DNA of 42,512 nt from positions 1 through 42,512 of the forward strand of contig CANCFV010000020.1 of the NCBI GenBank assembly GCA_947377275.1, read 5' to 3'. The DNA is from Burkholderiales bacterium (lineage in GTDB: Bacteria; Pseudomonadota; Gammaproteobacteria; Burkholderiales; Burkholderiaceae_C). Below the pieces are notes generated by a model. It was given only the letters and a program-made list of their open reading frames with translations, was not told the origin of the DNA and made no database searches. The position numbers were made by a program, and so were the translations under genes. Shown one piece after another: positions 3,621-35,423 of the stretch (its first letter is position 1; every line of letters starts with the position of its first letter).

Positions 3621-3630
3621 TCGAGATCGT

Positions 3631-8798: not shown

Positions 8799-8876
8799 GC
8801 GCCGTATTCTGACCTGCGCGCGCTTATCCTGCAGGGCTGGCGCCCTTTTGCCGCACCTCAATACGGAGACACGCAC

Positions 8877-9794: not shown

Positions 9795-9810
9795 CCCGCG
9801 CAGGCCCACG

Positions 9811-11848: not shown

Positions 11849-11927
11849 TTGTGGGCCCAAGCAAGCCTGCCTAGCCTGCACTCCCATGCCCGCCCACACC
11901 GGGTGGCGCAACCCAACGGAGTCTTGC

Positions 11928-18193: not shown

Positions 18194-18218
18194 ACCCGGT
18201 GCGCCTTGCGTGCCGGGT
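18194..18218 (+). terminator. Hairpin after the glycine-zipper gene
   Basis: ACCCGG (18194-18199) and CCGGGT (18213-18218) pair across a 13-nt loop that itself has GCGC/GCG complementarity. It follows the stop codon by 17 bp. No clear T-run follows. Confidence 0.45.
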
Positions 18219-18238
18219 GTTCGTGCGACGATCCCGGC

Positions 18239-18970
18239 ATGCAAGCTCTCAACCCGACCTCGCTCGATCAGGTCCCCGGCAACCTGCGTGAGCAGGGCTG
18301 GTCCGTGATCAGCGCCCCCCTTTTGCTCGACTGGGTGCACGCCGATGCCGCCCGGGCCAAAGCCCTGCACGCCAGCTGGTCTGACCTCCCGGCCGACCCC
18401 CACCTGCGCGACGGCGGGCACTACCGCTTCAGGCGCCACAGCTGCTTCACGCTCGACACGGCCCGCGCCCAACTGACGCAAACCCCGCACCGCGCCCACT
18501 GGCAGCCTGTGACCTACAACGCCCTGCACGGTGGCTTTGAGCGCTGGTTCGAGCCCATGCACGACGCGGTCTGCCAAGACCCCATGTGGCAAGCCTTGCT
18601 CACGCAGCTCGGCACCTTGCTGGCACAAGTCAAGCCCGTTGACACTTGGTACATTGAGGCGCACCAGTTCCGCGTCGACACCACAGGCGGCATCGGCCGC
18701 CCCACGCCGGAAGGCGCACACCGCGATGGCGTGGACTTCGTGGCCGTGCTCATGCTCGAGCGGCACGAGGTCAAGGGTGGCGAAACACGTGTGTTCGAGG
18801 CCGATGGCCCGCACGGCGTGCGCTTCACACTCCAGCAACCCTGGGGCACCCTGCTCCTCGACGACGCCCGCGTCATCCACGAGTCCACCCCCATCCAACC
18901 ACTGGGTGAGCATGGCTGGCGCGACACCCTGGTCCTGACCTTCAAACAGGGCGGCTTCCAGGGGCCTTGA
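18239..18970 (+). CDS. 2-oxoglutarate/Fe(II) dioxygenase-family protein
   Basis: This is a 243-residue cytoplasmic protein of the 2OG-Fe dioxygenase type that includes bacterial amino-acid hydroxylases. The Fe(II) triad is visible as His161 and Asp163 in AHRDGVDF and His214 in VIHESTP. RDTLVLTF near the C-terminus supplies the Arg expected to hold 2-oxoglutarate. The middle WYIEAHQFRV and RHEVKGGETRVFE are typical of this group. The substrate is unknown. The gene starts 62 bp after the glycine-zipper protein and converges with the ferredoxin-oxidoreductase gene (9-bp gap). Confidence 0.82.
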   Translation: MQALNPTSLDQVPGNLREQGWSVISAPLLLDWVHADAARAKALHASWSDLPADPHLRDGGHYRFRRHSCFTLDTARAQLTQTPHRAHWQPVTYNALHGGFERWFEPMHDAVCQDPMWQALLTQLGTLLAQVKPVDTWYIEAHQFRVDTTGGIGRPTPEGAHRDGVDFVAVLMLERHEVKGGETRVFEADGPHGVRFTLQQPWGTLLLDDARVIHESTPIQPLGEHGWRDTLVLTFKQGGFQGP

Positions 18971-18979: not shown

Positions 18980-20293
18980 TCAAGCGGTGCCGAATTTGGT
19001 GTCGAAGCGGATGCCAATGGACTGCAGCAGCGTGGTGGGCAGCACGCCCCCCGCGCACACGATCACCGCGTCGTTGGGCAGCACTTGCTGCCCCTCCTGT
19101 ATGTTCAAGGTGACCTGATCGGCCTCGATCTGGGCCACGGTGGATTGCAGCAGAACCTGCAATTTGCCAGCCTGCTCCATTTGCTTGAGCTTCTGGCGGT
19201 TTTTGTCTTTCACGCGCGAAAACGCCTGGCTGCGGTAAGACAAGGTCACCTGCGTGCCGGGCTCTTGCGCCAATGAAATGGCGGCCTCCAAGGCGCTGTC
19301 GCCCCCGCCCACCACCAGCACGCGCTGGCCACGGTACTGCTCGGCGTCCACCAGGCGGTACACCACCTTGCTCTGCTCCTCGCCGGCCACATCCAGCTTG
19401 CGCGGTGAACCCCGGCGACCCAGCGCCAGGAGCACGGTCTTGGTCTCATACGCCCGCTGGCTGCTGCGCACGATGAAGCCGCCGTCCTCGGTCGGGTCGA
19501 TGCCCTCCAGGCGCTCGCCAAACTGAAAGCGCAGCCCTGTCTTGTCGACCACGCCGTGCCAGAAGGTCAGCAGCGTCTCTTTGGCCACCTCGGTGCCCAG
19601 GCTCATCGAGCCCACCACGTCCAGCTTGACGGGAGCGGTCATGGTGATCTTGTTGCGGGGGTAGTGGTACACGGTGCCACCCAGCGCGTCTTCCTGCTCG
19701 ATGATGGCGTAGCGCATCTTGTGGTGCATGGCGCTCAAGCCAGCAGAAATGCCCGCCGGACCGGCCCCCACGATGACCACGTCCAGCGGCGCTTTCGAGG
19801 CACTGGCCTGCGCCTTCTTGTACAGCGCGGCCATGGCTTGGCGGCCCTGCTCGGCGGTCTTGCGGATCAGGCCCATGCCGCCCAACTCACCGGCAATGAA
19901 GATGCCGGGCACGCTGGACTCGAACTCCTTGCTCAACTGCGGGATGTCCACGCCGCGGTCGGCCGTGCCAAAGACCAGCGTCAATGCCTGCGTCGGGCAG
20001 GCCGCGATGCAAGCGCCATGGCCAATGCAGGCCGACGCGTTGATCAAGGTGGCCTTGCCATTGACGATGCCCAGCGCCTCTTCAGGGCAGGCCTTGGCGC
20101 ACGCGCCAGAACCAAAACAGCGGTTCGGGTCGACCACAGGGTGCAAGGAAGCGGGCTCGTGCAAGCCCGCTTGTTTGGACTCGCTCAAGGCCGTCTCAGC
20201 GGCTTGCAGCTTGCGGCGGCGGATCAGCACATGCACGCCAACGGCCAGGGCGGCAGCGCCCAAGTAAACGGGAAGGTAAGCGGGCAACAACAT
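18980..20293 (-). CDS. Membrane-anchored ferredoxin-flavin oxidoreductase
   Basis: This 437-residue electron-transfer protein has an N-terminal membrane helix (about 1-24). A two-cluster ferredoxin-like domain (about 50-105) follows, then a thioredoxin-reductase-like FAD/NAD(P)H fold (VVIVGAGPAGISAG at about 166, VVGGGDSALEAA near 300). The cluster motifs are atypical: C59-x2-S62-x2-C65-x3-C69-P and C89-x2-H92-x2-C95-x3-C99-P. The second Cys of each canonical motif is Ser or His. By eye this leaves three Cys per cluster. The start at 20293 begins the anchor; in-frame codons further upstream are not supported. It is divergent from the cytochrome conduit (194-bp gap), which suggests a link between NAD(P)H or ferredoxin and the conduit. 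No dedicated partner is recognisable. Confidence 0.85.
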   Translation of the reverse strand: MLLPAYLPVYLGAAALAVGVHVLIRRRKLQAAETALSESKQAGLHEPASLHPVVDPNRCFGSGACAKACPEEALGIVNGKATLINASACIGHGACIAACPTQALTLVFGTADRGVDIPQLSKEFESSVPGIFIAGELGGMGLIRKTAEQGRQAMAALYKKAQASASKAPLDVVIVGAGPAGISAGLSAMHHKMRYAIIEQEDALGGTVYHYPRNKITMTAPVKLDVVGSMSLGTEVAKETLLTFWHGVVDKTGLRFQFGERLEGIDPTEDGGFIVRSSQRAYETKTVLLALGRRGSPRKLDVAGEEQSKVVYRLVDAEQYRGQRVLVVGGGDSALEAAISLAQEPGTQVTLSYRSQAFSRVKDKNRQKLKQMEQAGKLQVLLQSTVAQIEADQVTLNIQEGQQVLPNDAVIVCAGGVLPTTLLQSIGIRFDTKFGTA

Positions 20294-20433
20294 GGGCAAG
20301 GGCCAACAACTCGAACAAGCCAAGCAAGTCGGCCTGCGGGGAATTCCCCGTTCACGCACCACCACACCGGCGATGCCTCACGCAAGACGATACGTCCAAG
20401 CGCGCTTCATGTTTGTAAGAAATCTAAACAAAA

Positions 20434-20451
20434 GTGCTAAAAGCACATTTA
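20434..20451 (+). promoter_or_regulatory. GTGC-N6-CACATTTA motif, copy 1 (upstream of conduit)
   Basis: GTGC-TAAAAG-CACATTTA; the inner part GTGCT-AAA-AGCAC is a perfect inverted repeat. It lies in a short AT-rich island in the divergent gap 20294-20487. A second hyphenated inverted repeat, TTTGT (20412-20416) and ACAAA (20428-20432), is just upstream. The trailing TTTATA resembles a -10 box. The same pattern recurs at 23254-23271. It is a candidate operator or promoter of the conduit operon; the regulator is unknown. Confidence 0.5.
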
Positions 20452-20529
20452 TAGCAGAGCCGATCCTTAGAATCCGAGCACCATGGCGTGGCCGTCCACC
20501 CTGAAGTCGCCGAGAAAGTACCCGTCCTC

Positions 20530-21405
20530 ATGGACACGCCTGCCACCGCAATCAAACCACCCTCGCCGCCCCTGCGCGCCGACCTGCTGATCTACTTGGC
20601 GCTGCTCGCCTTGGGGCTGGCGGCGTGGTGGATCTCCGAGCAAGGCTGGTTCACACCCTGGTCTCGCACCGGCTATTGGTTGGGTGTGGCTGGGGGCGTT
20701 TCCATGCTGTTGCTGTTCACCTACCCGCTGCGCAAGCGCTGGCGACTGACCTACAGCTGGGGCCCTGCAAAGGTCTGGTTCGCGGCGCACATGGTCCTGG
20801 GCATCTTGGGGCCCTGGTTGATCTTGCTGCACTCGACCTTCCAGATCGCCTCCACCAACGCCGCCGTGGCGCTGTTCTCGATGTTGATCGTGGCGCTCAG
20901 CGGCGTGGTCGGGCGCTTCTTGTACGTGCGCTTGCACGCCGACCTGCGCGGTGAAAAGGCCTCACTGGCCAGCCTGCGGCACAGCATGAACCATGCGCAC
21001 CAAACGGCCGACACCCAACTGGCCAGCATGCCCACGGTGCGCCATGCGCTCAACGACTTCGAGACCAAAGTGCTCGACAGCGCACCAGGCAGCAGCCCCG
21101 GACACCTGTGGCGCTTGTGCGTGCTGCCCATCCACAAACAGCGTCTGACGCGACTGTGCAAGCTGGAGGCCAAACAGGCCACCAAAGCCATGGCGCGCCA
21201 ACTCGAGTGGACGCCCAAACAGGCCCTGGCCCACTTCCGCAGCTGCAGCGAGCAAATCGAGGCCCACGGCGCGGCCGTGCAACGCGTGGCGCAATTCCAG
21301 ACTTTTGAGCGCTTGTTCTCGCTGTGGCACGTGGCCCATGTGCCCTTCGTCTGGATCATGGTGTTTTGCGCCATCTTCCACGTGGTGGCGGTGCATGCCT
21401 ACTGA
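20530..21405 (+). CDS. Di-haem b-type inner-membrane electron-transfer protein
   Basis: This membrane protein of about 291 residues has hydrophobic segments near 18-35, 48-65, 83-101, 110-133 and 265-289. Two of them carry paired His exactly 14 residues apart: His87/His101 and His270/His284. An H-x13-H pair in each of two helices is the classic arrangement that holds two haems b across the membrane (as in cytochrome b and ferric reductases). This is my reason for the call; no further family is recognised. A soluble loop of about 130 residues (134-262) with two Cys separates the helices. The start could instead be GTG at 20488; neither has a clear ribosome site. It heads the cluster and is followed 24 bp later by the 24-haem cytochrome. 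The inferred role is electron exchange with the quinone pool. Confidence 0.75.
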   Translation: MDTPATAIKPPSPPLRADLLIYLALLALGLAAWWISEQGWFTPWSRTGYWLGVAGGVSMLLLFTYPLRKRWRLTYSWGPAKVWFAAHMVLGILGPWLILLHSTFQIASTNAAVALFSMLIVALSGVVGRFLYVRLHADLRGEKASLASLRHSMNHAHQTADTQLASMPTVRHALNDFETKVLDSAPGSSPGHLWRLCVLPIHKQRLTRLCKLEAKQATKAMARQLEWTPKQALAHFRSCSEQIEAHGAAVQRVAQFQTFERLFSLWHVAHVPFVWIMVFCAIFHVVAVHAY

Positions 21406-21429
21406 AGCCATGGGCGGCGGGGCGCGCTC

Positions 21430-23325
21430 GTGAAGCTGTTGCTAAACGCCTTGCTCAAGCTGATGCTGGCCGCTGTGCTGGCATGGGCGGGGTGGATCAC
21501 GCCTGCGCGGGCGCAATCCATCGAGTCGGTGCTGGCCCCTGGCGAGCTGATCGCAGGCCACGCCAAGGTCGAAAACGACTGCGCCAGCTGCCACGTGCGC
21601 TTCAACCCCAAAGGGCAAGATGCGCTTTGCACCGTGTGCCACAAAGAGGTCGGGCTGGACCTCAAGAACCGAACCGGCTTTCACGGCAAGCCCAAGTCAG
21701 CGGCCACCTGCCGCAGCTGCCACACCGACCACAAAGGCCGCCAGGCCAAGATCGTGCAGCTCGACACCAAGCGCTTTGACCACAGCCAGACCGACTACCC
21801 GCTCAAAGCCAAGCACGAACGCGTGGCCTGCGAGAAGTGCCACACGGCAGGCAAGAAACACTGGCAAGCCCCCAGCGACTGCCTGAGCTGCCACAAGAAA
21901 GACGATGCCCACAAGGGCGGCATCGCGGGCAAATGCTCTGACTGCCACAAAGAGACCGGCTGGAAAGACACCGACTACGACCACGGCAAGAAGACCCGCT
22001 TTGCGCTGGAAGACAAGCACGCCAAGCTCAAGTGCGACGACTGCCACGCCAACGGCCGCTACAAAGACACGCCCCGCACCTGCATCGGCTGCCACAAGAA
22101 AGACGACGAGCACAAAGGCCAGTACGGCAGCAAGTGCGAAAGCTGCCACAGCGCCAAGGCATGGAAAGACATCGGCTTCAACCACGATACCGACACCGGC
22201 TACGCCCTGCGCGGCAAACACCGCAAGACCGCCTGCAACGACTGCCACACCGGCCCGATCTACAAACAAAAGCTGCCCCAACAGTGCTGGGATTGCCACA
22301 AGAAAGACGACAAGCACAAAGACACCTTGGGACGCGACTGCGCCTCATGCCACAGCGAGTCAGGCTGGAAAGACCCACCGCGCTTTGACCACGACAAGAC
22401 CCCCTTCCCACTGCTGGGCAAGCACACCAAGGCCGACTGCAAGGACTGCCACAAGAGCAACCTGTTCAAAGAAGCCCCTTCAGATTGCTACGCCTGCCAC
22501 AAGAAAGACGACAAGCACGAAGGCACGCTTAGCAAGGCCTGCGTGGACTGCCACAGTGAGCGCGACTGGAAAACCACTGCGGGCCGCTTTGACCACGACC
22601 GCACCCGCTTCGCCCTGCGCAACGCGCACGCGGCCGCCAAGGTCAAGTGCAGCGACTGCCACCAAGGTGGCCCCAGCAAGCTCAAGGGCACGGCCAGCGA
22701 CTGCTACGCCTGCCACAAGAAAGACGACAAGCACGAAGGCACCCAGGGCAAGCAGTGCGCGCAGTGCCATGGCGACAAGGACTGGAAGGCAACCGTGTTC
22801 GACCACGGCAAGACCCGCTTCCCGCTGACCGGCGGGCACGTACGCATCGAGTGCAAGTCGTGCCATGTAAGCAAGCGCTTCAAGGATGTGCAGCGCGAAT
22901 GCGTGGCTTGCCACCTCAAAGACGACACCCACAAGGGCCGTTTGGGTGACCAGTGCGAGAGCTGCCACAACGCACGGCACTGGAAAGCGTGGGACTTCAA
23001 CCACGCCAAGCAAACCAAGTACCCCTTGACCGGAGGACACGCTCGCGTGAAGTGCGAAGCCTGTCACAGCCAGCCGGCACCCAAAGGCAAAGCCATCGCA
23101 GAAGTGGGGCAGCGCTGTGTGGACTGCCACGAACGCAACGACGTGCACGACGGTCAGTTCGGGCGGCGCTGCGAGCTGTGCCACGTGCCGGCGTCGTGGT
23201 TACAAACAGATAAACATGCGCGGGCACGCGACATCCAGCCACCTATAATGAATGTGCAGTTTTCACATTTAATGGGCATCAGCAGTCGCCTCAGTCCCAA
23301 TCGTTTCGTCCATGCCCACCTCTGA
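21430..23325 (+). CDS. 24-haem c-type cytochrome, periplasmic type
   Basis: This is an exported 631-residue multihaem cytochrome. A signal peptide (about 1-29, ending TPARA-QS) is followed by 24 CxxCH haem sites counted by eye, the first at about residue 52 and the last near 585. The sequence is very rich in Lys and Asp (repeated CHKKDDKHKG), as in soluble periplasmic carriers. From the fifth haem on it is built of a three-haem unit (see repeat entry). The start is GTG at 21430. The last 40 or so residues (from LQTDKHARAR) have no haem and unlike composition, and their DNA is AT-rich with a TATAAT and the second regulatory motif, so the tail may be incidental. It overlaps the next gene by 14 bp. 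Inferred role: to relay electrons between the inner-membrane b-cytochrome and the outer-membrane porin. Confidence 0.93.
   Translation: MKLLLNALLKLMLAAVLAWAGWITPARAQSIESVLAPGELIAGHAKVENDCASCHVRFNPKGQDALCTVCHKEVGLDLKNRTGFHGKPKSAATCRSCHTDHKGRQAKIVQLDTKRFDHSQTDYPLKAKHERVACEKCHTAGKKHWQAPSDCLSCHKKDDAHKGGIAGKCSDCHKETGWKDTDYDHGKKTRFALEDKHAKLKCDDCHANGRYKDTPRTCIGCHKKDDEHKGQYGSKCESCHSAKAWKDIGFNHDTDTGYALRGKHRKTACNDCHTGPIYKQKLPQQCWDCHKKDDKHKDTLGRDCASCHSESGWKDPPRFDHDKTPFPLLGKHTKADCKDCHKSNLFKEAPSDCYACHKKDDKHEGTLSKACVDCHSERDWKTTAGRFDHDRTRFALRNAHAAAKVKCSDCHQGGPSKLKGTASDCYACHKKDDKHEGTQGKQCAQCHGDKDWKATVFDHGKTRFPLTGGHVRIECKSCHVSKRFKDVQRECVACHLKDDTHKGRLGDQCESCHNARHWKAWDFNHAKQTKYPLTGGHARVKCEACHSQPAPKGKAIAEVGQRCVDCHERNDVHDGQFGRRCELCHVPASWLQTDKHARARDIQPPIMNVQFSHLMGISSRLSPNRFVHAHL
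21889..23190 (+). repeat. Seven three-haem units in the 24-haem cytochrome
   Basis: The element CHKKDDxHKG (later CHLKDD and CHERND) starts at 21889, 22090, 22294, 22495, 22711, 22909 and 23125. Spacings are 201, 204, 201, 216, 198 and 216 nt, 66-72 residues per unit. Each unit holds three CxxCH plus a conserved W-K-x-FDH-x-TRFPL-x-GKH spacer whose extra His are candidate distal haem ligands. Confidence 0.88.
23254..23271 (+). promoter_or_regulatory. GTGC-N6-CACATTTA motif, copy 2 (before giant cytochrome)
   Basis: GTGC-AGTTTT-CACATTTA, inside the inverted repeat AATGTG-N7-CACATT (23251-23269). It lies within the 3' end of the 24-haem gene and 40 bp before the start of the 47-haem gene. A perfect TATAAT sits just upstream at 23244-23249, but no good -35 box is seen 17 bp before it. 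The match to the copy at 20434-20451 is 12 of 12 fixed bases with the same spacing. It may be an internal promoter or operator. Confidence 0.5.
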
Positions 23326-26300
23326 CACCCGCAACCGCATGCTTCAACTGGCCCTGAGCTGGTTGGCCATGCTCATGCTGGTGATGGCCGGATGGACGCC
23401 GATGCAGGCCTCGGCCCAAGGGGCCAACCCGAAGTTCGAGCACTTCAAAACAGGTTTCCCACTCAGCGGCTCGCACACCACAACGCGCTGCGAGTCGTGC
23501 CACATCAACGGGGTGTTCAAAGGCACACCGCGAGACTGTCAGACCTGTCACACCACGGGCTCGCGCTTCTCGCGTGCCAACGCGACCATGCCGAGCAACC
23601 ACATCCCGGTGTCGGTCAAGCAAACCTGCGACTCGTGCCACGGCACGCAAGCGTTCTCGGGCGTTCGTTTTTCGCACAGCACGATGACCGCTGGCGCCAG
23701 CTGCCAGTCGTGCCATGACGGCATCCACTCGCCAGGCAAGCCGAGCAACCACATCCCCACCCGGGCCAACTGTGAGACCTGCCACACATCCTCTTCGTGG
23801 AGCAGCAACGCCCGCCCCGATCACAGCACGTTCACCACGGCCACCGACTGTGTCGGTTGCCACAATGGTGGCCCGGCCAGTGGCAAGCCCTCAGGGCACA
23901 TTCCAGTGTCAGCGAACTGCGTGAGCTGCCACGCTGTCACCAGCTGGAAGCCCACCAACTTCAACCACACCCAGGTCAACACCTCGGGCCAGTGCGCCAC
24001 CTGCCACACGGGCAACAACCCGCCAGCCGACGGCAAGCACAACAAGCACATCCCGACCAGCGGCATCAGTGGCATCGCCTCGGCGAGTTGCGACAGCTGC
24101 CACAAGGGCGGCTTCAGTGCCTGGAGCAACGGCAAGTTCCACGCGAACAACGCCGTGAGCGGGCAATGCGCCACCTGCCACCTCAATGGCGCGAACTTCG
24201 ACATCGTTGGCAAACCCAACAACAGCACGCACGCCAGCGTGACCGGCAACTGCGAAAAGTGCCACGCCACGGGCAACAGCTGGGCCGTGTCCAAGGTCGA
24301 CCACAGCCAGTTCAACGCCAGCACCACCTGCAGCAGCTGCCACAACGGCACGGGCGCCACCGGCAAGCCCACCACCCACGTGCCCACGAGCGTGAACTGC
24401 CTGAGCTGCCATACCACCAGCGCCTGGAAGCCAAGCAAGTGGAACCACACGCAGGACACCAGCACGACCTGCAGCACCTGCCACTCCAACCCTTACGCCA
24501 CCAGCAAGCCGTCGAACCACATCCCGGTGAGCTCCGGTTGCAACAGCTGCCACGGCACCACCAGCTGGAAGCCCAGCAGCTTCAACCACACCCAGGTGAG
24601 CACCACGGGCCAATGCGCCACTTGCCACTCGGGCAGCAACCCGCCAGCCGATAGCAAGCCCGCCAACCACATCCCGACCACTGCCACGGTGGGCGTGAAC
24701 AACGCCAGCTGCGACACCTGCCACAAGGGCAGCCTCACCTCGTGGGCCACCGGCAAGTTTCACAACAACGTTACGGTGGTTGGGCAGTGCGCCGCATGCC
24801 ACCTCACGGCCCAATTTGGTCTGACCGCTAAGCCCAACAACAACACGCACAGTGGCGTGACAGGCAACTGCGAGCAATGCCACAAGACCAGTGGCTGGGC
24901 AGGCGCCACGGTGGACCACAGCAAGTTCACCTCTGCCACGCAGTGCGCCAGCTGCCACAACGGCACCACGGCCACCGGCAAGGACAACAGCCACATCCCC
25001 GTGACGGGCAATTGCACCAAGTGCCACAGCACCTCGGGCTGGAAGCCAACGTCCTGGAACCACACCCAAGAATCCGTTACGCAGTGCGCCACCTGCCACA
25101 ACGGTGTCTACTCAACCACCAAGCCCGGTAACCACATCCCGGTGACGGCGGTGTGCAGCACCTGCCACACCACCACCAGCTTCAAGCCCAGCAGCTTCAA
25201 CCACACGCAAGTGAGCACGGCGGGGCAATGCGCCACGTGCCACACCGGCATGAACCCGCCGGCAGGTGGCAAGGCGCTCAGCCACATCCCCACCACGGCC
25301 ACGGTGGGCGTGGCCAACGCCAGCTGCGACACCTGCCACAAGGGCGGCTTCACAGGCTGGAACAACGGCCTGTTCCACAACAACGTGTCGGTGGTGGGCC
25401 AGTGCGCGTCGTGCCACATGACCAACCAGTACGGGCTGACCAGCAAGCCCAGCAACAGCACGCACAGTGGCGTGACAGGAAACTGCGAGCAATGCCACAA
25501 GACCAGTGGCTGGGCGGGCGCCACGGTGGATCACAGCAAGTTCACCTCTGCCACACAGTGCGCCAGCTGCCACAACGGCACCACGGCCACCGGCAAGGAC
25601 AACAACCACATCCCCGTGACGGGCAATTGCACCAAGTGCCACAGCACCTCGCGCTGGACACCCACCAGCTGGAACCACACGCAAGAGTCGGTCACACAGT
25701 GCGCCACCTGCCACAACGGCGTGTACTCGCTCACCAAGCCCGGTAACCACATCCCGGTCACGGCGGTGTGCAGCACCTGCCATACCACCGCCAGCTTCAA
25801 GCCCAGCAGCTTCAACCACACGCAAGTGAACACGTCGGGACAATGCGCCACCTGCCACACAGGCATGAACCCACCGGCCGACGGCAAGCCAATGAACCAC
25901 GTCCCCACCACGACGACGGTGGGCGTGACCAACAACAGCTGCGACACCTGCCACAAGGGCAGCTTGACGACGTGGAGCACGGGCAAGTTCCACAACAACG
26001 TGACCGTGATCGCGCAATGTGCCAGCTGCCACCTCACGCCGCAGTTTGGTCTGACCAGCAAACCCAACAACGCCACACACAGCGCCATCTCCGGCAACTG
26101 TGAGCAGTGCCACAAGACCAGTGGCTGGACAGGTGCACGCGTCAACCACAGCACCTTCAACGCCACCACACAATGCGGCACTTGCCACAACGGCAACGGC
26201 GCCACGGGCAAACCGGGCAACCACGTGCCCACCACGGCCAACTGCATCAGCTGCCACAGCACCTCGGTGTGGACCCCTGCGAACTGGACCCACACCCAGA

Positions 26301-27178
26301 TCGTGGTGACCAACCAATGTGCCAGCTGCCACACCGGCGGCTACGCCAACGCCGATGGGCGACCTGGCAACCACATCCCCTACCAGTCGATCACGGCGAG
26401 CGCCGCGGCCAACTGCGACACCTGCCACAGGGGCAGCTTCAAGATCTGGAGCAACGGCCAGTTCCACGCCAACGTGACGGTGACGGGGCAATGCGCGTCT
26501 TGCCACACCGGCGGCTTCCTGGGCCCTGACCCCAAGCCGGGCAACCACATCCCTTACCAAAGCGTGATCGGATCGGCCAACGCAGGTTGCGAGACTTGCC
26601 ACAAGGGCGGCTTCAACTCGTGGGCCAGCGGCAAGTTCCACGCCAACGTCAACGTCACAGGTCAGTGCGCCACTTGCCACAACGGCTCCTACCTGGGGCC
26701 AGACAAGAAGCCCGGCAACCACATCCCCTACCAGAGCGTTGGCGCCTCGGTGAACGCTGGGTGCGAGACCTGTCACAAAGGCAGCTTCACCTCGTGGGCA
26801 ACGGGCAAGTTCCACAACAACGTGACGGTGACCACGCAGTGCAAGACCTGCCACATGGGTGGCTTCCTGGGCGCGACCATGAAGCCCACCAACCACATCC
26901 CTGAGTCGCAACTGCTCAACGGCACCAACATGGAATGCAATGCCTGCCACAAGAGCACGGCGGCCGGCGGCTTTGGCACCACGGTGATGGACCACAACAA
27001 CAGCCAGGGCAATGGCTCGGGCTATTGCTATGCCTGCCACCGGTCTGGCACGGCCTTCTTGGGCCCGATGGAGCGCAAGTCGCTCACCCACCGCAAGAGC
27101 ACCGGTGTTTTTGACTGCTCACAGTCTGGATGCCACCGCCCTGTGGGCAATGAAGGCACGACCTATCGCAGCTGGTGA
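23312..27178 (+). CDS. Giant 47-haem c-type cytochrome, surface type
   Basis: This 1288-residue exported multihaem cytochrome has a signal peptide (about 1-35, cleaved near ASAQG). It has 46 CxxCH sites by my count plus one CX4CH (CSQSGCH) near the C-terminus. The sequence between haems is rich in Asn, Thr, Ser and Gly (repeats such as KPGNHIP, SSFNHTQ, SNGKFH), unlike the charged 24-haem protein upstream. This fits an extracellular, wire-like role. Repeated NHIP and FNHT or VDHS His are candidate distal ligands. No lipobox is seen, so attachment to the cell surface must come from the porin or other proteins. The start is 23312 or 23339; neither has a clear ribosome site. The stop overlaps a GTG of the porin frame. 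It would exchange electrons with minerals or other cells; direction not deducible. Confidence 0.93.
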   Translation: MPTSDTRNRMLQLALSWLAMLMLVMAGWTPMQASAQGANPKFEHFKTGFPLSGSHTTTRCESCHINGVFKGTPRDCQTCHTTGSRFSRANATMPSNHIPVSVKQTCDSCHGTQAFSGVRFSHSTMTAGASCQSCHDGIHSPGKPSNHIPTRANCETCHTSSSWSSNARPDHSTFTTATDCVGCHNGGPASGKPSGHIPVSANCVSCHAVTSWKPTNFNHTQVNTSGQCATCHTGNNPPADGKHNKHIPTSGISGIASASCDSCHKGGFSAWSNGKFHANNAVSGQCATCHLNGANFDIVGKPNNSTHASVTGNCEKCHATGNSWAVSKVDHSQFNASTTCSSCHNGTGATGKPTTHVPTSVNCLSCHTTSAWKPSKWNHTQDTSTTCSTCHSNPYATSKPSNHIPVSSGCNSCHGTTSWKPSSFNHTQVSTTGQCATCHSGSNPPADSKPANHIPTTATVGVNNASCDTCHKGSLTSWATGKFHNNVTVVGQCAACHLTAQFGLTAKPNNNTHSGVTGNCEQCHKTSGWAGATVDHSKFTSATQCASCHNGTTATGKDNSHIPVTGNCTKCHSTSGWKPTSWNHTQESVTQCATCHNGVYSTTKPGNHIPVTAVCSTCHTTTSFKPSSFNHTQVSTAGQCATCHTGMNPPAGGKALSHIPTTATVGVANASCDTCHKGGFTGWNNGLFHNNVSVVGQCASCHMTNQYGLTSKPSNSTHSGVTGNCEQCHKTSGWAGATVDHSKFTSATQCASCHNGTTATGKDNNHIPVTGNCTKCHSTSRWTPTSWNHTQESVTQCATCHNGVYSLTKPGNHIPVTAVCSTCHTTASFKPSSFNHTQVNTSGQCATCHTGMNPPADGKPMNHVPTTTTVGVTNNSCDTCHKGSLTTWSTGKFHNNVTVIAQCASCHLTPQFGLTSKPNNATHSAISGNCEQCHKTSGWTGARVNHSTFNATTQCGTCHNGNGATGKPGNHVPTTANCISCHSTSVWTPANWTHTQIVVTNQCASCHTGGYANADGRPGNHIPYQSITASAAANCDTCHRGSFKIWSNGQFHANVTVTGQCASCHTGGFLGPDPKPGNHIPYQSVIGSANAGCETCHKGGFNSWASGKFHANVNVTGQCATCHNGSYLGPDKKPGNHIPYQSVGASVNAGCETCHKGSFTSWATGKFHNNVTVTTQCKTCHMGGFLGATMKPTNHIPESQLLNGTNMECNACHKSTAAGGFGTTVMDHNNSQGNGSGYCYACHRSGTAFLGPMERKSLTHRKSTGVFDCSQSGCHRPVGNEGTTYRSW
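23993..26340 (+). repeat. Tandem eight-haem repeats in the 47-haem cytochrome
   Basis: Corresponding haem codons (CATCHxGxNPPA) begin at 23993, 24614, 25229 and 25844. This gives units of 621, 615 and 615 nt (205-207 residues, eight haems each), then a partial fourth unit to about 26340. A shorter two-haem unit of about 60 residues (GGFLGPDxKPGNHIPYQS) follows to about 26900. Units two and three are nearly identical in DNA over about 190 bp. Confidence 0.9.
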
Positions 27179-27249
27179 GCCAGCCCCACTGCCCAACGCC
27201 ATCCGATCTGCCCCCTGAGCCTGCGGGCTCAGAACTCACCGCTTTGACC

Positions 27250-29715
27250 ATGACTGCACTGAACCGCCACTGGCTTCTCGCCCCCCTCTTGACGCTGTCG
27301 GCCTGGTCGGCCCACGCAGACATCATGGATGACATCGATGTGCGCCGCGAAGGCAACAACGCCGTGGTGTCGGTGCGCATGGCGGTGTCGGTCAACCTGC
27401 AGCGCTTCACCACATCGCGCAGCAGCGACCTGACACAGGCCTACTACCAAGTGCGCCGCAGCGACGTGGCCCCCGCATATGTGTCGGGCGAGCGCCGCGT
27501 GGTGCAGGCCGATGGCTTGCCCACCATCACCATCTCTGACGAGCCCGTACGCCCTGACTTGGTTCAGGACACGAACCGCCGCCTGATCATCTCGTTCGGC
27601 AAAAGCGTGAAGTTCAAGGTGCGCGCCGGCAAAGGCGAACGCGCCATCGAGGTCGTGCTCGAAGGGATGGGCGCTGCGGTCAAGTCCACCACCTTGTCCA
27701 AACCGCAGGCGCCGCTGCGGCCCGAGCAACGCTACGTCATCACCCTGACCCGCTCCAGCGACCCGAAGGTGGGCGTGGAGACTCCAGTGCCTCAGGCCCT
27801 GCAAAACATGCAGGTGTTCTCGGCACGGCGTGTGGTGGACGGCCAGCAGGTCTACGAAATGGACTTGGGCTACTTCGCCACCCTGGCCGAGGCCGAGACG
27901 GCCCTGAAACTGCTCGGGCGCTTCCCACAAGCGGTGATCGTCAAGCTGACACAAGAGGGCGACGCGCCAGCCCAAGCAGATCAAAGCGGCACACCCGGCC
28001 CCGCCATGGCCGACGACATGCTGCAACAGGCCCGCCAAGCCTACGAACAGCAACGACTGGACGACGCTGCCGCAACGCTGAACAAGCTGCTGGAGCTGCC
28101 GCCGTCGGCCACCACCGCCGAAGCGCAAGAACTGCTGGGCATGGTGCGCATCGCACAAGGCGAACCCGCCAAGGCCCAGGTCGAGTTCGACAGCTACTTG
28201 AAGCAGTTCCCCAGCGGTCCTGGCGCAGAGCGCGTTCGCGCGGCCCTGGCCGGTCTGCAGGCCCCCGACCTCAAGCTCAGCCCCACCCTGGAGGGCGCGA
28301 AGAAGCCCGAAGGGACGCCCACGGTCACGGGCTCGATCTCGCAGTACTACTACGGCGGCCAATCGACCCAAGAAAGCCAGGCCATTCGCGACACCGACGG
28401 CACCTTGCTCTCGGCCGCAGAAATTGAAAAGCGCCGCACCGCACCCATCAGCGGCACCGATCAAAAGCTGCTGTCCACCAACATGGACGCCACCTGGCGT
28501 TCGCGCAACGCCGAGCGCGACATCAAGCTCGTCGCCCGCAATCAATTCGACTACAACCTGCTCAGCGACGCCCAACTCAAAGGCAAAAGCCGCACACGCA
28601 ACCGCTTGACCGCGGCCTACATGGACTACCAATCGCTGACCAGCGGGTTTCGCTCGCGTCTGGGCCGCCAATCGGCCCAATGGGGTGGCGAAGGCCGTTA
28701 CGACGGTGGCCAGGTCAGCTACGTGTTCCGCCCGAAATGGAAGGCGTCGGCCGCCGTGGGCATGCCCACCGACAAACTGGCCGAGTCCAAACGCCAGTTC
28801 TATGGCGCCTCGCTGGACGCCGATGCCCTCACGCCCAACATCGGCGCCTCGGTGTTCGTGATGCAGCGCATGATCGATGGCGAGACCGACCGCCGTGCCG
28901 CCGGCCTGGACCTGCGCTACTTCTCGCAAAGTGGCTCCATCATGGCTTCGACCGACTACGACGTCATGTTCCGCAAACTCAACGTGGCCAGCGTGCAAGG
29001 CCTCTACCTGGGCGAGAGCAACACCACCGTCAACGTGCTGGTCGAGCGCCGCAGCCTCGCACAAGCCTCGCTGGGCCAGACCCTGTTCTTCCAGTTCGCC
29101 GACCTGCAGACCGCGGGCATCCAGCCACAAACCGTGCAGGACCTCAAGCGCAACAACTACACCGTGGCGCAACTGCGCGAGCTGGTCCGCAAGAACACCA
29201 CCTATGCCGATCACGCCATGACCTCGGTGACCACCCCCATCACCGCGCAATGGCAGATGGGCCTGGACCTGCACCTCAACCGCACCGGGGCCATCGCGCC
29301 CAACCCGGTCCTGCCCAATGGGCAACCGGCCAGCGGCTTGCAACGCACGGTGGGCCTGCAAGCCATCGGCACCAACCTCTACTCGGCGCGCGACACCAGC
29401 GTGCTCTCGGGCTCGTACACCAACAGCACCTCGTTCACCCTGCGCCAGATGTCGTACAACAACTTGACGACCGTGACAGAAGATTGGCAACTCGAACCCT
29501 CGGTGCGCTGGCAGTTGGGCCTCTCGAAAGACCCCATCACCAGCCTGACGACCAAGACCACGGCGTGGGGACCCGGTTTGAAGGCATCATTCAAGCCTCG
29601 CCCGGCGGTGACGCTGGAATCCAATCTGAACGTGGATTACACCAAGACGGTGGGCACCAACCAAGATCGCAGCACGCGTTACACCTACTTCCTTGGCTAC
29701 CGATACGACTATTGA
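27250..29715 (+). CDS. Outer-membrane porin of a porin-cytochrome conduit
   Basis: This exported protein of about 821 residues starts with a signal peptide (MTALNRHW...WSAHAD). Its N-terminal part (to about 190) looks like a short beta-domain pair with an AMIN-like flavour. Next is an SPOR-like segment (YEMDLGYFATLAEAETAL, about 215-245). TPR-like helices follow (about 255-335, QARQAYEQQRLDDAAATLNK). The C-terminal half or more (about 350-821) has alternating hydrophobic beta-strand texture and ends YFLGYRYDY, with the terminal aromatic of outer-membrane barrels. It most likely forms the outer-membrane sheath through which the two multihaem cytochromes meet. The ATG at 27250 is preferred over GTG at 27175, which overlaps the cytochrome stop, because it gives a good signal peptide. 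Its 3' end overlaps ccmA by 23 bp. Confidence 0.82.
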   Translation: MTALNRHWLLAPLLTLSAWSAHADIMDDIDVRREGNNAVVSVRMAVSVNLQRFTTSRSSDLTQAYYQVRRSDVAPAYVSGERRVVQADGLPTITISDEPVRPDLVQDTNRRLIISFGKSVKFKVRAGKGERAIEVVLEGMGAAVKSTTLSKPQAPLRPEQRYVITLTRSSDPKVGVETPVPQALQNMQVFSARRVVDGQQVYEMDLGYFATLAEAETALKLLGRFPQAVIVKLTQEGDAPAQADQSGTPGPAMADDMLQQARQAYEQQRLDDAAATLNKLLELPPSATTAEAQELLGMVRIAQGEPAKAQVEFDSYLKQFPSGPGAERVRAALAGLQAPDLKLSPTLEGAKKPEGTPTVTGSISQYYYGGQSTQESQAIRDTDGTLLSAAEIEKRRTAPISGTDQKLLSTNMDATWRSRNAERDIKLVARNQFDYNLLSDAQLKGKSRTRNRLTAAYMDYQSLTSGFRSRLGRQSAQWGGEGRYDGGQVSYVFRPKWKASAAVGMPTDKLAESKRQFYGASLDADALTPNIGASVFVMQRMIDGETDRRAAGLDLRYFSQSGSIMASTDYDVMFRKLNVASVQGLYLGESNTTVNVLVERRSLAQASLGQTLFFQFADLQTAGIQPQTVQDLKRNNYTVAQLRELVRKNTTYADHAMTSVTTPITAQWQMGLDLHLNRTGAIAPNPVLPNGQPASGLQRTVGLQAIGTNLYSARDTSVLSGSYTNSTSFTLRQMSYNNLTTVTEDWQLEPSVRWQLGLSKDPITSLTTKTTAWGPGLKASFKPRPAVTLESNLNVDYTKTVGTNQDRSTRYTYFLGYRYDY

Positions 29716-30319
29716 TGCAAGCCCCTCGCTGCTGTCGGCACAGGATCTGGCCTGTCGGCGCGGTGACCGCCTGCTGTTCGAGCACCTGGACCTGAGCCTC
29801 AGCCCCGGTGAGGCGGTGTGGGTGCGAGGCCCCAACGGACGGGGCAAGACCAGCCTGCTGCGCCTGCTGGCGGGCTTGTCTCAGCCTGCGGGCGGCCAGA
29901 TCCAGCGCTGCGCCCCACTCCTGTACCTGGGGCACCAGCACGCCCTCAAAGACGACCTGACGGCCAGCGAGGCCCTGACTTTTTTGCTGCGACTGCACGG
30001 CCTGCACACCAGCGACGCCGCCGTCACCGAGGCCTTGGCCCGCTTGGGCGTCAAAGGCCGCCGCTCGGCCCTGGTGCGCACCCTGTCCCAGGGGCAGCGC
30101 CGCCGCGTGGCCCTGGCGCGCCTGGCCTTGTCGCCCCCTGCTTCGGTCTGGATATTGGACGAACCCTTTGACGCGCTGGACGACCAGGGCATCGGCACCT
30201 TGAACGAGATGATCGAATCCCACCGGCAATCGGGCGGCGCCGTCGTGCTGACCAGCCACCAGGACGTGCACCTGCCGCGCCTGACCACCCGCCAACTGGG
30301 CGGACAGAACGGGGGTTGA
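29693..30319 (+). CDS. ccmA: Haem exporter ATP-binding subunit CcmA
   Basis: CcmA is the ATPase of the CcmABCD complex that releases haem-loaded CcmE in System I cytochrome c maturation. Walker A is GPNGRGKTS, the signature is LSQGQRRRVALARL, Walker B is VWILDEPFDALD, and an H-loop TSHQD is present. Length 208 residues. The best start is TTG at 29693, inside the porin gene (23-bp overlap), because no other in-frame start precedes the conserved part. The overlap suggests translational coupling to the cytochrome conduit. It is the first of nine ccm genes in the order A to I. Confidence 0.93.
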   Translation: MATDTTIDASPSLLSAQDLACRRGDRLLFEHLDLSLSPGEAVWVRGPNGRGKTSLLRLLAGLSQPAGGQIQRCAPLLYLGHQHALKDDLTASEALTFLLRLHGLHTSDAAVTEALARLGVKGRRSALVRTLSQGQRRRVALARLALSPPASVWILDEPFDALDDQGIGTLNEMIESHRQSGGAVVLTSHQDVHLPRLTTRQLGGQNGG

Positions 30320-30324
30320 AGCAG

Positions 30325-30981
30325 ATGTGGGCCTTGATCGCACGCGATTGCCAACTCGCCGCTCGCCGTCGGGTCGATGCACTGTTGCCGCTGGTGTTCT
30401 TCATCGTTGCCGCCAGTTTGTTTCCCTTGGGCGTGGGGCCAGAAGCGCAGATGTTGCGTACCATGGCGCCCGGGGTCGTTTGGGTGTGTGCCTTGCTGGC
30501 CGCTTTGCTGTCGCTCAACGGCCTGTTCAGCACCGATTTTTCGGATGGCAGCTTGGAGCAGATGCTGCTGTGCGGGCAGCCGCTGGCCGGCTTGGCTCTG
30601 GGCAAGGCGATCGCGCACTGGCTGATCAACGGCTTGCCGCTGGTGCTGGCCTCGCCGCTGCTGGGTGTGTTGTTTGACATGCCTGGCCGTGAGCTGGGGG
30701 TGCTGGTGCTGAGCCTCTTGCTGGGCACCCCCGTGCTCAGCCTGCTTGGGGGTGTGGGTGCCGCCTTGACGCTGGGCCTGCGCAGCGGTGGCATGCTGAT
30801 CGTGTTGCTGGTTTTGCCCCTGGCCATGCCGGTGCTGATTTTTGGCGCGGGTGCGGTCGGTGCGGTCAGCGCGGGCCTGTCGCCGCAGGGGCACCTGTCG
30901 CTGCTGGGCGCCTTGTTTTTGCTGACCTTGTTGGGCGCGCCCTGGGCCACGGCCGCTGCCCTGAAAATTGCGCTGGACTGA
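30325..30981 (+). CDS. ccmB: Haem exporter permease subunit CcmB
   Basis: CcmB is the membrane subunit of CcmABCD, with about six hydrophobic segments in 218 residues. LNGLFSTDFSDGSLEQMLL and the C-terminal APWATAAALKIAL are typical of CcmB. ATG at 30325 is preferred; an in-frame TTG at 30316 overlapping the ccmA stop is also possible. A GGGGG run precedes it. It is separated from ccmC by 3 bp. Confidence 0.94.
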   Translation: MWALIARDCQLAARRRVDALLPLVFFIVAASLFPLGVGPEAQMLRTMAPGVVWVCALLAALLSLNGLFSTDFSDGSLEQMLLCGQPLAGLALGKAIAHWLINGLPLVLASPLLGVLFDMPGRELGVLVLSLLLGTPVLSLLGGVGAALTLGLRSGGMLIVLLVLPLAMPVLIFGAGAVGAVSAGLSPQGHLSLLGALFLLTLLGAPWATAAALKIALD

Positions 30982-30984
30982 ACG

Positions 30985-31722
30985 ATGTCTCGATTGACCT
31001 GGACCACCTTTGCTGCCCCCTCGCGCTTTGAGTCGCTCAGCGCGGCCCTCACGCCATGGCTGTGGCTGGTCTGCCTGATCACCACGCTGGCGGGCTTGTA
31101 CGTGGGCTTCATCCTGGCGCCCTCTGACTTTCAGCAAGGCCAGTCTTACCGCATCATCTTCATCCACGTGCCGGCGGCCTGGATGTCGATGGTGCTTTAC
31201 CTGGCCATGGCCTTTTGGGCCGGTGTGGGCTGGGCCTTCAATGTGCGGCTGGCCTCGATGCTGGCGCGGGCCATCGCCCCCACCGGCGCCCTGTTCACCT
31301 TCCTGGCGCTGTGGACCGGCGCCCTGTGGGGCAAGCCCACCTGGGGCACCTGGTGGGTGTGGGACGCCCGCCTGACGTCTGAGTTGATCTTGCTGTTCTT
31401 GTACCTCGGCTACATCGCCCTGGTTGAGGCCATCGACGACCCCCGCCGTGGCGACCACGCAGGCGCCCTGCTGGCCCTGGTCGGCGCCGTCAACGTGCCC
31501 ATCATCTACTTCTCGGTGAAGTGGTGGAACACGCTGCACCAAGGCTCATCGATCAGCATGACCGCTGCGCCCAAAATGGCGTCGATCATGCTCACATCGA
31601 TGTTGTTGATGACCGTGGCCTTCTGGGCCTACGCCTTTGCCGTGGTGTTAAGCCGTACCCGCGCCATCGTCATGGAACGCGAACGTGGCGCCAAATGGCT
31701 CAACGACCTGACCGCAGCCTAG
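30985..31722 (+). CDS. ccmC: Haem handling protein CcmC
   Basis: CcmC is an inner-membrane protein that presents haem to the chaperone CcmE. The 245-residue protein has six hydrophobic segments and the tryptophan-rich WWD-type motif WGTWWVWDARLTSELIL. His in FIHVPAAW and in NTLHQGSS are the expected haem ligands on the periplasmic side. It follows ccmB by 3 bp and precedes ccmD by 11 bp. Confidence 0.96.
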   Translation: MSRLTWTTFAAPSRFESLSAALTPWLWLVCLITTLAGLYVGFILAPSDFQQGQSYRIIFIHVPAAWMSMVLYLAMAFWAGVGWAFNVRLASMLARAIAPTGALFTFLALWTGALWGKPTWGTWWVWDARLTSELILLFLYLGYIALVEAIDDPRRGDHAGALLALVGAVNVPIIYFSVKWWNTLHQGSSISMTAAPKMASIMLTSMLLMTVAFWAYAFAVVLSRTRAIVMERERGAKWLNDLTAA

Positions 31723-31733
31723 GAGTGAGCGCA

Positions 31734-31901
31734 ATGCAATGGAAAAGCCTGTCTGACTTCATCGCCATGGATGGCTACGGCCTGTACATCTGGGGCTCGT
31801 ATGGCGTGACCCTTGCCTTCATGCTGGCCGAGCCCCTGCTGGTCGCGCGTCGCCGCCGCCAGGCCTGGGCCCAAGCCGCCACCCCTCAAGAGGAATCCTG
31901 A
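31734..31901 (+). CDS. ccmD: Haem exporter small subunit CcmD
   Basis: This 55-residue single-span membrane protein (about 17-34, [19 protein letters not shown]) is followed by an Arg-rich cytoplasmic end. CcmD joins CcmA, B and C and helps release haem-loaded CcmE. The ATG at 31734 has GGAG 10-13 bases upstream (beginning at the end of ccmC), and the stop is one base before the ccmE ATG. The size, topology and place in the operon support the call, since the sequence itself is poorly conserved. Confidence 0.9.
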
Positions 31902-31902
31902 C

Positions 31903-32364
31903 ATGACCCCGCGTCAAAAGCGTGTCGCCCTGATCGTGGGCGGCCTGGTGTTGGTGGGTGGCGCGGCCGCGCTCGTCCTCAATGCCTTCCAGAGCAACCT
32001 GGTGTTTTTCTACACCCCCACGCAAATCGTGGCCAAAGAAGTCCCGCTCGACCGCACCTTCCGCCTCGGTGGCATGGTGGTGAAAGACTCGGTCGTGCGC
32101 GAGGGCGTTCAGGTGCGCTTCAGCGTGACCGATACATTGCGCACGGTGCCCGTTCGCTACGACGGCATCCTGCCCGACCTCTTCAAAGAGGGCAAAGGCG
32201 TGGTCGCACAGGGCAAGTTGGGTGAAGACGGCGTGTTCAAGGCCGCCGAGGTGCTGGCCAAGCACGACGAAAACTACATGCCCCCCGAGGCCGCCGAAGC
32301 CCTGAAACGCGCCGGTGAAGCCAACGCACGCATCGAGGCCCAACAGGCCAAGGAGAAAAAATGA
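31903..32364 (+). CDS. ccmE: Periplasmic haem chaperone CcmE
   Basis: CcmE is a membrane-anchored chaperone that binds haem covalently and hands it to apocytochromes through CcmF/H. The haem-binding His is His121 in KHDENYMP, with Tyr125 as expected. A single N-terminal anchor (about 8-28) is followed by a beta-barrel domain. Length 153 residues. Its stop overlaps the ccmF ATG by 4 bp (ATGA). Confidence 0.96.
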
Positions 32365-34349: not shown

Positions 34350-34870
34350 AGCGTTTCCTTTTGCCCTTGGGCATCTTTCTGGCACTGGCCGTGTTCCTGG
34401 GCATGGGGCTCAAGCTCGACCCGCATGAAGTGCCTTCGCCGCTGATCAACAAACCGGCACCCGATTTCGCGCTTCCCACGCTGCACGAGCCCGGCCAGAC
34501 TTTGCGCAAGCAAGACATGCTGGGCAAGGTCTGGCTGCTCAACGTGTGGGCATCGTGGTGCGGTGCCTGCCGCCAAGAACACCCGGTGCTGGTCGACTTC
34601 GCGCAGCGCCAGTCAACGCCCGTTTACGGCCTGAATTACAAGGACGAACGCGCCGACGGCCTGGCCTGGCTGCAATCGGGCGGCAACCCCTATGCGGCCT
34701 CGCTCTTTGACCACGAAGGTCGCACTGGCATCGACTACGGCGTGTACGGCGTGCCCGAGACCTTCGTCATCGACAAGGCAGGCGTGATCCGCTACAAGCA
34801 CATCGGCCCGATCACCCCTGACGTGCTGCAACAAAAAATCGAACCGCTGCTGAGGCAACTCAATGGTTGA
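34346..34870 (+). CDS. ccmG: Thiol:disulfide oxidoreductase CcmG (DsbE)
   Basis: CcmG is a membrane-tethered periplasmic thioredoxin-like protein that reduces apocytochrome or CcmH Cys so haem can be attached. The redox site is WCGAC at Cys72/Cys75, preceded by the CcmG-type VWLLNVWAS. GVYGVPETFVID provides the cis-Pro loop. One N-terminal membrane helix; 174 residues. It receives electrons from DsbD (gene at 7086-8798). Its stop overlaps the ccmH start by 8 bp. Confidence 0.96.
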   Translation: MKRFLLPLGIFLALAVFLGMGLKLDPHEVPSPLINKPAPDFALPTLHEPGQTLRKQDMLGKVWLLNVWASWCGACRQEHPVLVDFAQRQSTPVYGLNYKDERADGLAWLQSGGNPYAASLFDHEGRTGIDYGVYGVPETFVIDKAGVIRYKHIGPITPDVLQQKIEPLLRQLNG

Positions 34871-35375: not shown

Positions 35376-35423
35376 ACGCCTGGCGTTTCGCACCGTTCAC
35401 CGACCGCACACCTGGCACCGCCC

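Follow-up and report, generated by a model that had tools for sequence, protein, structure and literature searches.

The stretch of DNA considered here (the window: all 42,512 nucleotides of contig CANCFV010000020.1, Burkholderiales bacterium assembly GCA_947377275.1) encodes, on the evidence of its sequence, a PCC3 cluster of an already described kind, and next to it an iron-sulfur (Fe-S), flavin adenine dinucleotide (FAD) and NAD(P) flavoprotein that we propose as a fifth PCC3 component. PCC3 was named in 2017 as a candidate system for iron oxidation or other electron transfer, and is defined in the main text of that study by a porin, an extracellular cytochrome, a periplasmic cytochrome, and a conserved inner-membrane protein (IMP) (He et al., 2017, PMC5566968). 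Its electron transfer is described as untested or unproven in the main texts of PMC5566968, PMC12442390, and PMC8788666, later PCC3 papers still calling its function untested. We judge it somewhat probable that the window cluster is a PCC3-type extracellular electron conduit with the flavoprotein as its cytoplasmic end. The cluster itself is ordinary PCC3; it is the conserved partner that makes its function testable, as a concrete handle on the cytoplasmic end that predicts a specific reaction assayable in vitro, and as a second marker gene for PCC3. The features discussed are the following, with lengths in amino acids (aa) and transmembrane (TM) helices where applicable:

18980-20365, - strand: Fe-S/FAD/NAD(P) flavoprotein, a 461-aa open reading frame (ORF) recognized by Pfam/NCBIfam matches, conservation, co-occurrence, and a permutation test
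20366-20487, no strand: 122-bp divergent intergenic region between the flavoprotein and IMP genes, presumed control region
20488-21405, + strand: IMP, 305 aa, with five TM helices, two WX3HX13H pairs, SGXXG, and a helical domain between TM4 and TM5
21430-23325, + strand: periplasmic-type cytochrome with 24 haem motifs in eight tri-haem modules of about 67 aa
23312-27178, + strand: extracellular-type cytochrome with 47 haem motifs (46 CXXCH and one CX4CH) and Thr/Ser/Gly/Asn-rich repeats
27175-29715, + strand: outer-membrane protein with an N-terminal beta domain, a SPOR-like domain, TPR-like helices, and a predicted 22-strand barrel
29693-36704, + strand: ccmA, B, C, E, F (nrfE-like), G (dsbE), H (nrfF-like), and I (nrfG-like), by Pfam/NCBIfam matches

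The flavoprotein gene, overlooked in the first reading of the window, diverges from the IMP gene 122 bp away, and the two genes occur together well beyond this genome. Among 300 genomes drawn from the order (cut-offs E < 1e-40 for the IMP and E ≤ 1e-60 for the flavoprotein), 17 carry a PCC3-type IMP and 17 the flavoprotein, and these are the identical 17 genomes; at the looser cut-off of E ≤ 0.001 the IMP search extends to 41 genomes, and the 24 added by distant IMP relatives all lack the flavoprotein at E ≤ 1e-60. A draw of 399 genomes from the family (IMP cut-off E ≤ 1e-20) gave 32 genomes with the IMP, 33 with the flavoprotein, and 31 with both. The single IMP-only genome (G627) is 82% complete and has its IMP at a contig end, and in the two flavoprotein-only genomes (G318 and G656) the gene adjoins ccm genes, the contig measuring 10.2 kb in one case and 8.1 kb in the other, an arrangement known from PCC3 loci too. 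In the phylum draw of 289 genomes, strong IMP matches (E < 1e-80) and the flavoprotein occur in the same 4, and 11 more genomes have only weak IMP matches. Pooling these three partly overlapping draws yields 49 genomes with the IMP, 50 with the flavoprotein, and 48 with both; Fisher p values, which ignore shared ancestry, are 1e-42 (family), 4e-28 (order), and 4e-9 (phylum).

The flavoprotein gene is divergent from the IMP gene within 400 bp in all 15 non-family genomes of the order draw, shares a contig with it in 18 of the 31 family genomes that have both, and falls within the fetched stretch, upstream or downstream, in 22 of 41 IMP loci. Among the best 80 of 567 confirmed flavoprotein candidates, a sample that leans to close relatives, the IMP is in the flank of 52, some PCC3 gene in that of 65, and the divergent arrangement is present in 39. 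A chance neighborhood was rejected on the co-occurrence in three draws, which extends to genomes where the genes lie on different contigs. A 2OG-Fe dioxygenase gene (18206-18970, + strand) is located beside the window flavoprotein, and a 76-79% identical copy is found near the flavoprotein in three loci (L059, L099, and L100) and in no further locus of the fetched IMP and flavoprotein sets.

Term searches for FAD and ferredoxin gave no match in the main texts of PMC5566968, PMC12442390, PMC8788666, PMC13386937, and PMC12016527. The main text of PMC10734462 contains 15 ferredoxin matches and one FAD match; the passages returned concern Rnf, ferredoxin, and, in a table row, a 4Fe-4S ferredoxin-domain cluster without assignment, and none of them connects to PCC3. 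Full-text literature searches returned no title joining PCC3 to a flavoprotein, with supplements, where a mention is possible, outside their scope.

The flavoprotein begins with a membrane helix followed by RRRK, by which the positive-inside rule would place its soluble part in the cytoplasm. Two Fe-S motifs (CFGSGACAKACP and CIGHGACIAACP), an FAD-tail motif relocated to about residues 139-190, an FAD domain (GAGPAG), and an NAD(P) domain (GGGDSALEAA) make up the remainder. The best curated relatives are YpdA and thioredoxin reductase, both far under their cut-offs (YpdA/Bdr: 157.2 bits against a cut-off of 339.9), and the matches in the PDB are to YpdA/Bdr, thioredoxin reductase, and ferredoxin-NADP reductase. 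A role as disulfide reductase was rejected, because the active cysteines are absent from 106 distinct sequences: no CxxC occurs in their flavin part, and the position of the YpdA active cysteine, after GxGP, is Ala in 102 and Ser in 4.

The flavoprotein appears to be circularly permuted relative to thioredoxin-reductase-like enzymes. In such enzymes the tail motif comes after the NAD(P) domain, with which a weak second alignment, from the PDB comparison, agrees; here the consensus motif TNVPGIFIAGELGG...EQGRQA precedes the FAD domain. When residues 139-190 were moved behind residue 461, the thioredoxin-reductase match grew from positions 2-212 to 2-293 of 300, and scores rose from 82.0 to 87.9 (thioredoxin reductase), from 158.7 to 169.5 (YpdA), and from 54.3 to 65.5 (PRK05249), against 78.1, 155.4, and 48.3 for a control with the tail reversed. 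It is this longer match with higher scores that we read as a circular permutation. Some models showed no gain: AhpF (TIGR03140) fell from 55.7 to 49.5 (reversed tail, 45.0), BaiCD fell from 39.9 to 37.1, and ArsO stayed level at 44.8.

The two Fe-S motifs differ in their conservation across the 106 sequences. At the second-cysteine position, motif 1 has Ser in 81, Ala in 12, Cys in 11, and Gly in 2, and motif 2 has His in every one; the cysteine ligand of motif 1 seems to have been lost along particular lineages, with the His of motif 2 present throughout. (Motif 1 retains the cysteine in L136, L158, L167, L170, L171, L173-L175, L177, L196, and L197.) According to the main text of Child et al. 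(2018, PMC6237146), ferredoxins with the pattern CXX?XXC(X)nCP hold [3Fe-4S] or [4Fe-4S] clusters, and those of M. marinum span -340 to +230 mV, being more positive with His and low with Ser. By analogy with these potentials, one cluster of the flavoprotein may have a higher potential than a usual ferredoxin.

The rest of the cluster agrees with the PCC3 definition. Four genes follow one another, all on the + strand, in the order given by the preliminary description of the window, and their motifs and order support its view of a PCC3-type conduit from the inner to the outer membrane. Its boundaries are revised here: the first ORF begins at 20488 or at an ATG at 20530, not at 20434, and the unit is larger than the four genes, with the flavoprotein and ccm genes belonging to it too. 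The order of IMP, two cytochromes, and barrel recurs in 29 of 41 loci (the window and 40 fetched relatives); the other 12 have no barrel in view, and one of them (L089) is also without the second cytochrome. Aquabacterium sp. NJ1 is named as a PCC3 carrier in the main text of He et al. (2017, PMC5566968), and the nearest named relatives of the window flavoprotein, among the best 80 of 567, come from Aquabacterium metagenome-assembled genomes (MAGs; 78% and 76%). Isolates that carry the cluster include Piscinibacter defluvii SH-1 and Rubrivivax albus ICH-3.

The published PCC3 IMP has about 300 aa and five helices, with SGXXG in helix 4 and WX3HX13H in helices 3 and 5 (main text of PMC5566968), and the window IMP matches it in size, number of TM helices, and both motifs. 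The two H-x13-H helices noted at the outset carry the pairs H101/H115 and H284/H298, which together with W97, S138, G139, G142, and W280 are unchanged in all 41 IMPs of an alignment. The structure predicted by AlphaFold2 (mean pLDDT 86.4) places W97/H101/H115 on helix 3 (94-116), S138/G139/G142 on helix 4 (123-150), and W280/H284/H298 on the last helix, helix 5. Since the same IMP belongs to PCC3 as defined by He et al. (2017, PMC5566968), we rejected the di-haem-b protein as a mark setting this cluster apart, and the idea that it was an addition to PCC3 falls away. The K/R-rich loops 78-93 and 150-270 should face the cytoplasm, so H101/H284 should lie near the cytoplasm and H115/H298 near the periplasm, forming two stacked haems b.

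The 24- and 47-haem cytochromes were likewise confirmed by motif counts (24 CXXCH; 46 CXXCH and one CX4CH), where shuffles of the residues of the same proteins give a mean of 0.3-0.5 CXXCH and a maximum of 3 in 500. These numbers had been called extreme, which the published record does not support: He et al. (2017, PMC5566968) report in their main text medians of 34 (extracellular) and 21 (periplasmic) haems with up to 85, and the outer relatives counted here have 11-71. We rejected the haem content as a difference from PCC3 on those medians and that maximum. The smaller protein packs 24 motifs into 631 aa, one haem for every 26 aa. Such few residues per haem, and a haem number close to the published 21, are as for a PCC3 periplasmic cytochrome; its location is predicted. 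The larger (47 motifs in 1288 aa) has the very many haems, the repeats, including a repeated motif spacing, and the small residues (T 13.8, S 11.1, G 9.9, and N 8.4 percent) of a PCC3 extracellular cytochrome, and is predicted to reside at the cell surface. It scores 163 bits against a cut-off of 192.2 with TIGR03508 (MtrA/MtoA/DmsE), and across the window genome this model matches only stretches of the 47-haem gene, none over the cut-off.

The spacing of the motifs in the 24-haem protein repeats at about 16-18, 18, and 33 residues, which corresponds to the eight tri-haem modules. We counted haem motifs in stop-to-stop frames from 98 distinct IMP loci, dropping incomplete frames, and obtained 89 inner and 52 outer cytochromes. 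The inner count is a multiple of three in 88 of the 89 and exactly 24 in 70, whereas the outer count varies from 11 to 71 and is a multiple of three in 18 of 52, equal to the chance expectation. The exception among the inner proteins (L162) has 10 motifs and a second short cytochrome frame alongside, and in L061 a frame counted at 9 motifs is followed by one of 15 (sum 24); both are probably split genes. Published counts are in agreement, with 21, 24, and 27 for the periplasmic subunit and 10-35 for the outer one. This three-haem step rule suggests a protein ruler matched to the width of the periplasm: the 24-haem protein would be a periplasm-spanning wire of fixed length, and the 47-haem protein an unconstrained surface wire.

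The fourth protein was described from the start as an outer-membrane barrel, and structure prediction agrees, to the extent that prediction goes, in yielding no soluble protein and in providing the adjacent outer-membrane beta-barrel that PCC3 calls for. In its AlphaFold2 model (mean pLDDT 80.2, pTM 0.54), a beta domain at the N terminus is followed by a SPOR-like segment (residues 187-257), by helices resembling TPRs (277-360), and by 22 long strands between residues 381 and 845. Foldseek returned 330 PDB matches at E ≤ 0.001, and the 50 listed are outer-membrane proteins whose TM-scores stay low (no higher than 0.28 by query and 0.49 by target). Across 26 relatives, Pfam matches are to TPR_9 (16 proteins), SPOR (6), and an OMP barrel (4). 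With its SPOR and TPR parts the protein may be anchored in the periplasm, and the gene may start at the ATG at 27250, where by eye a signal-peptide-like stretch begins.

The genes from the IMP to the ccm set are closely packed. The two cytochrome frames overlap by 14 bases, the 47-haem and barrel frames by 4, and the barrel gene overlaps the first ccm frame by 23, provided that the TTG start of the latter is right; given this packing and these overlaps, the IMP, cytochrome, barrel, and ccm genes likely form a single operon. A scan of 20300-30100 returned no sigma-70-like promoter, and 17 terminator-like sites compared with 13.0 ± 3.3 in shuffles. The ccm set lies directly 3' of the barrel gene, its first frame starting inside the end of that gene; ccm genes are found by the cluster in 13 of 41 IMP loci. 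A second ccmF match in the window genome has 60% identity and one internal stop. Dedication of the linked set to PCC3 is a suggestion.

From the gene content, motifs, gene order, co-occurrence, and module counts observed, and the barrel and helices predicted, the following path can be proposed, which would be passable in either direction. Cytoplasmic NAD(P)(H) would exchange electrons with the FAD and, if the cofactor sites are occupied as their motifs suggest, with the two Fe-S clusters of the membrane-anchored flavoprotein. Through a presumed contact between flavoprotein and IMP, these clusters would communicate with the cytoplasm-side haem b (H101/H284) and, in the topology outlined above, with the periplasm-side haem b (H115/H298). 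The 24-haem wire of eight tri-haem modules would link the IMP to the 22-strand barrel, and the barrel would connect to the 47-haem cytochrome, in its predicted surface position, and to an acceptor or donor outside. The neighboring ccm set would meet the cluster's large demand for haem. We lean toward electron flow that exports reducing power, a direction that is unproven: outward flow, in which reducing power would be shed to minerals, humics, electrodes, or other cells, is favored because electrons move downhill when they pass from NAD(P)H to the outside, but not when they pass inward.

Several findings weigh against a conduit that ends in the flavoprotein. In 13 of the 31 family genomes that carry both, the two genes are on different contigs; these assemblies range from 6 contigs (G491) to 670. 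Of the best 80 of 567 flavoprotein loci, 15 have no PCC3 gene in the flank (these include six contigs of ≤8.1 kb and, besides, four loci with ccm genes), and one, L150, has none despite full 10-kb flanks on both sides, so that linkage is not universal. Extracellular PCC3 cytochrome Slit_1448 is at 0 in all eight ES-1 proteome columns of a magnetite study (main text of PMC12016527), which puts in question any use of the conduit under those conditions. He et al. proposed a quinone-linked IMP (main text of PMC5566968), and the IMP from the second PCC3 copy of Sideroxydans CL21 goes up along with iron-oxidizing ability (main text of PMC12442390). These last two points, with the presence of PCC3 in iron oxidizers, speak for electron uptake, in which PCC3 passes electrons from Fe(II), minerals, or other cells via the IMP to the quinone pool and the flavoprotein serves reverse electron flow or stands beside the main path. 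We consider this rather unlikely. Both PCC3 clusters of strain ES-1 are down on Fe(II)-citrate relative to thiosulfate (main text of PMC8788666), a misfit with Fe(II) oxidation there for which the flavoprotein partner offers a reason, and the zero values for Slit_1448 also count against uptake; the window genome (86.9% complete, 6.15% contamination) has no RuBisCO match and no MtrA/MtoA member over the cut-off; and uptake leaves the near-perfect bond with an NAD(P)-type flavoprotein unexplained. A Methylobacter bioanode paper was set aside as PCC3 evidence, its text concerning an MtrAB-type cluster. The evidence on direction points both ways (ES-1 against CL21), as the preliminary description allowed in calling it open; its continuous route to the quinone pool stands as one possibility, while the conserved partner gene points to NAD(P)-type chemistry.

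The flavoprotein could also be an assembly helper outside the electron path, for example one that reduces haem or apocytochrome thiols for the linked ccm system. A ccm gene is in the flank of 23 of the best 80 of 567 flavoprotein loci, and the gene adjoins ccm genes in both flavoprotein-only genomes. Apocytochrome reduction is, however, a periplasmic process and the soluble part of the flavoprotein would be cytoplasmic; the consistent divergence from the IMP gene in the 15 non-family genomes and the lack of CxxC in the flavin part likewise make such a role improbable. It is more improbable still that both cytochromes are periplasmic and form an electron store, the barrel having another role. 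No lipobox was seen on reading the 47-haem sequence, and the barrel protein, through its SPOR- and TPR-like parts, is linked to the periplasm, but the barrel gene directly follows the cytochrome in 29 of 41 loci, and a freely varying outer haem count beside an inner one held near 24 is what would be expected if only one protein were confined by the periplasm.

Returning to the conduit with a flavoprotein end, a tentative and on balance doubtful extension is that PCC3 is a split, NOX-like trans-envelope NAD(P)H oxidoreductase that bypasses the quinone pool in PCC3 bacteria generally, iron oxidizers included. The permuted Fe-S flavoprotein would pass pyridine-nucleotide electrons via two haems b into the 24-haem ruler, which they would leave via the variable-length surface wire. 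Against this, as against the conduit reading itself, the IMP has no significant sequence relation to ferric reductases/NOX (PF01794), and its model has no PDB fold match below E 0.29 in Foldseek; the NOX-like reading therefore rests on motif, topology, and gene partnership. In the cleaner test, a Pfam scan at E ≤ 0.01, none of the 41 IMPs matched PF01794 (two match cytochrome b561, PF01292, weakly). Comparisons by hhalign gave probabilities of 0.5% and 0.1%, weak tests in that the alignments contained wrong rows (in the second, at least L219, L223, and some tails look wrong). Homology to PF01794 was rejected on the scan together with these negatives.

More distant relatives of the IMP were also recovered. 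In 19 fetched loci, a multihaem frame lies 3' of the IMP in 18 and an Fe-S protein precedes it in 2. Five such relatives paired with multihaem proteins (L018, at 1414-3777, L020, L019, L025, and L030) look like a separate inner-membrane electron-transfer system; the gene preceding the IMP in L018 and L020 encodes a cNMP-binding plus Fe-S protein, and L018 has a below-cut-off FHA match. In PCC4 Subgroup II, an Fe-S gene (pfam13247) lies upstream of the IMP (He et al., 2017, main text, PMC5566968), and an Fe-S input may be a feature that recurs among such membrane proteins.

Of the 6 genomes from the window's genus in the family draw, just 2 have the cluster, which suggests gain by transfer or frequent loss. 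A plasmid search with the IMP gave no match. In one genome (G730), the IMP and flavoprotein are on separate contigs (L195 and L196), each of which terminates in a cytochrome frame. Assemblies probably break at the repeat-rich outer cytochrome, and PCC3 may therefore be under-counted in MAGs. Elsewhere in the window are a MauG/di-haem cytochrome c peroxidase (234-1637, + strand) and a long DsbD (7086-9902, - strand), which add cytochrome and thiol-reduction genes near the cluster, as well as a eukaryotic-type carbonic anhydrase domain with a long N-terminal region (4205-5515, - strand) and a Peptidase C25 (gingipain-type) with dockerin and TSP3-like matches (11886-14624, + strand).

Compared with known systems, the flavoprotein shares its FAD and NAD(P) domains with YpdA/Bdr, thioredoxin reductase, and type-2 ferredoxin-NADP reductase, but is apparently permuted, membrane-anchored, and equipped with two Fe-S motifs; its family further differs in lacking CxxC and in having Ala or Ser in place of the YpdA active cysteine. 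The cluster would work like a ferric reductase/NOX, in which two HX13H helices are expected to hold two stacked haems b beside an NAD(P)-type flavoprotein partner; unlike there, the IMP has no detectable homology to PF01794 and the flavoprotein is a separate polypeptide of another family. Cytochromes plus an outer-membrane barrel are also the parts of MtrCAB/MtoAB, whose decahaem cytochromes are of another family, the window proteins scoring below the DmsE/MtrA cut-off. The entry to MtrCAB is the quinol-linked CymA.

PCC4 has an IMP with the same motif pattern and, in Subgroup II, the upstream Fe-S gene, yet its IMP is of another family, it has three periplasmic cytochromes and no extracellular one, and its Fe-S protein is different (He et al., 2017, main text). 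To PCC3 itself (PMC5566968) the likeness extends to the IMP motifs, two giant cytochromes, porin, gene order, low number of residues per haem, repeats, and small residues. The published main text gives PCC3 four components, whereas here the Fe-S/FAD/NAD(P) protein travels along, and some of the clusters counted also have ccm genes attached.

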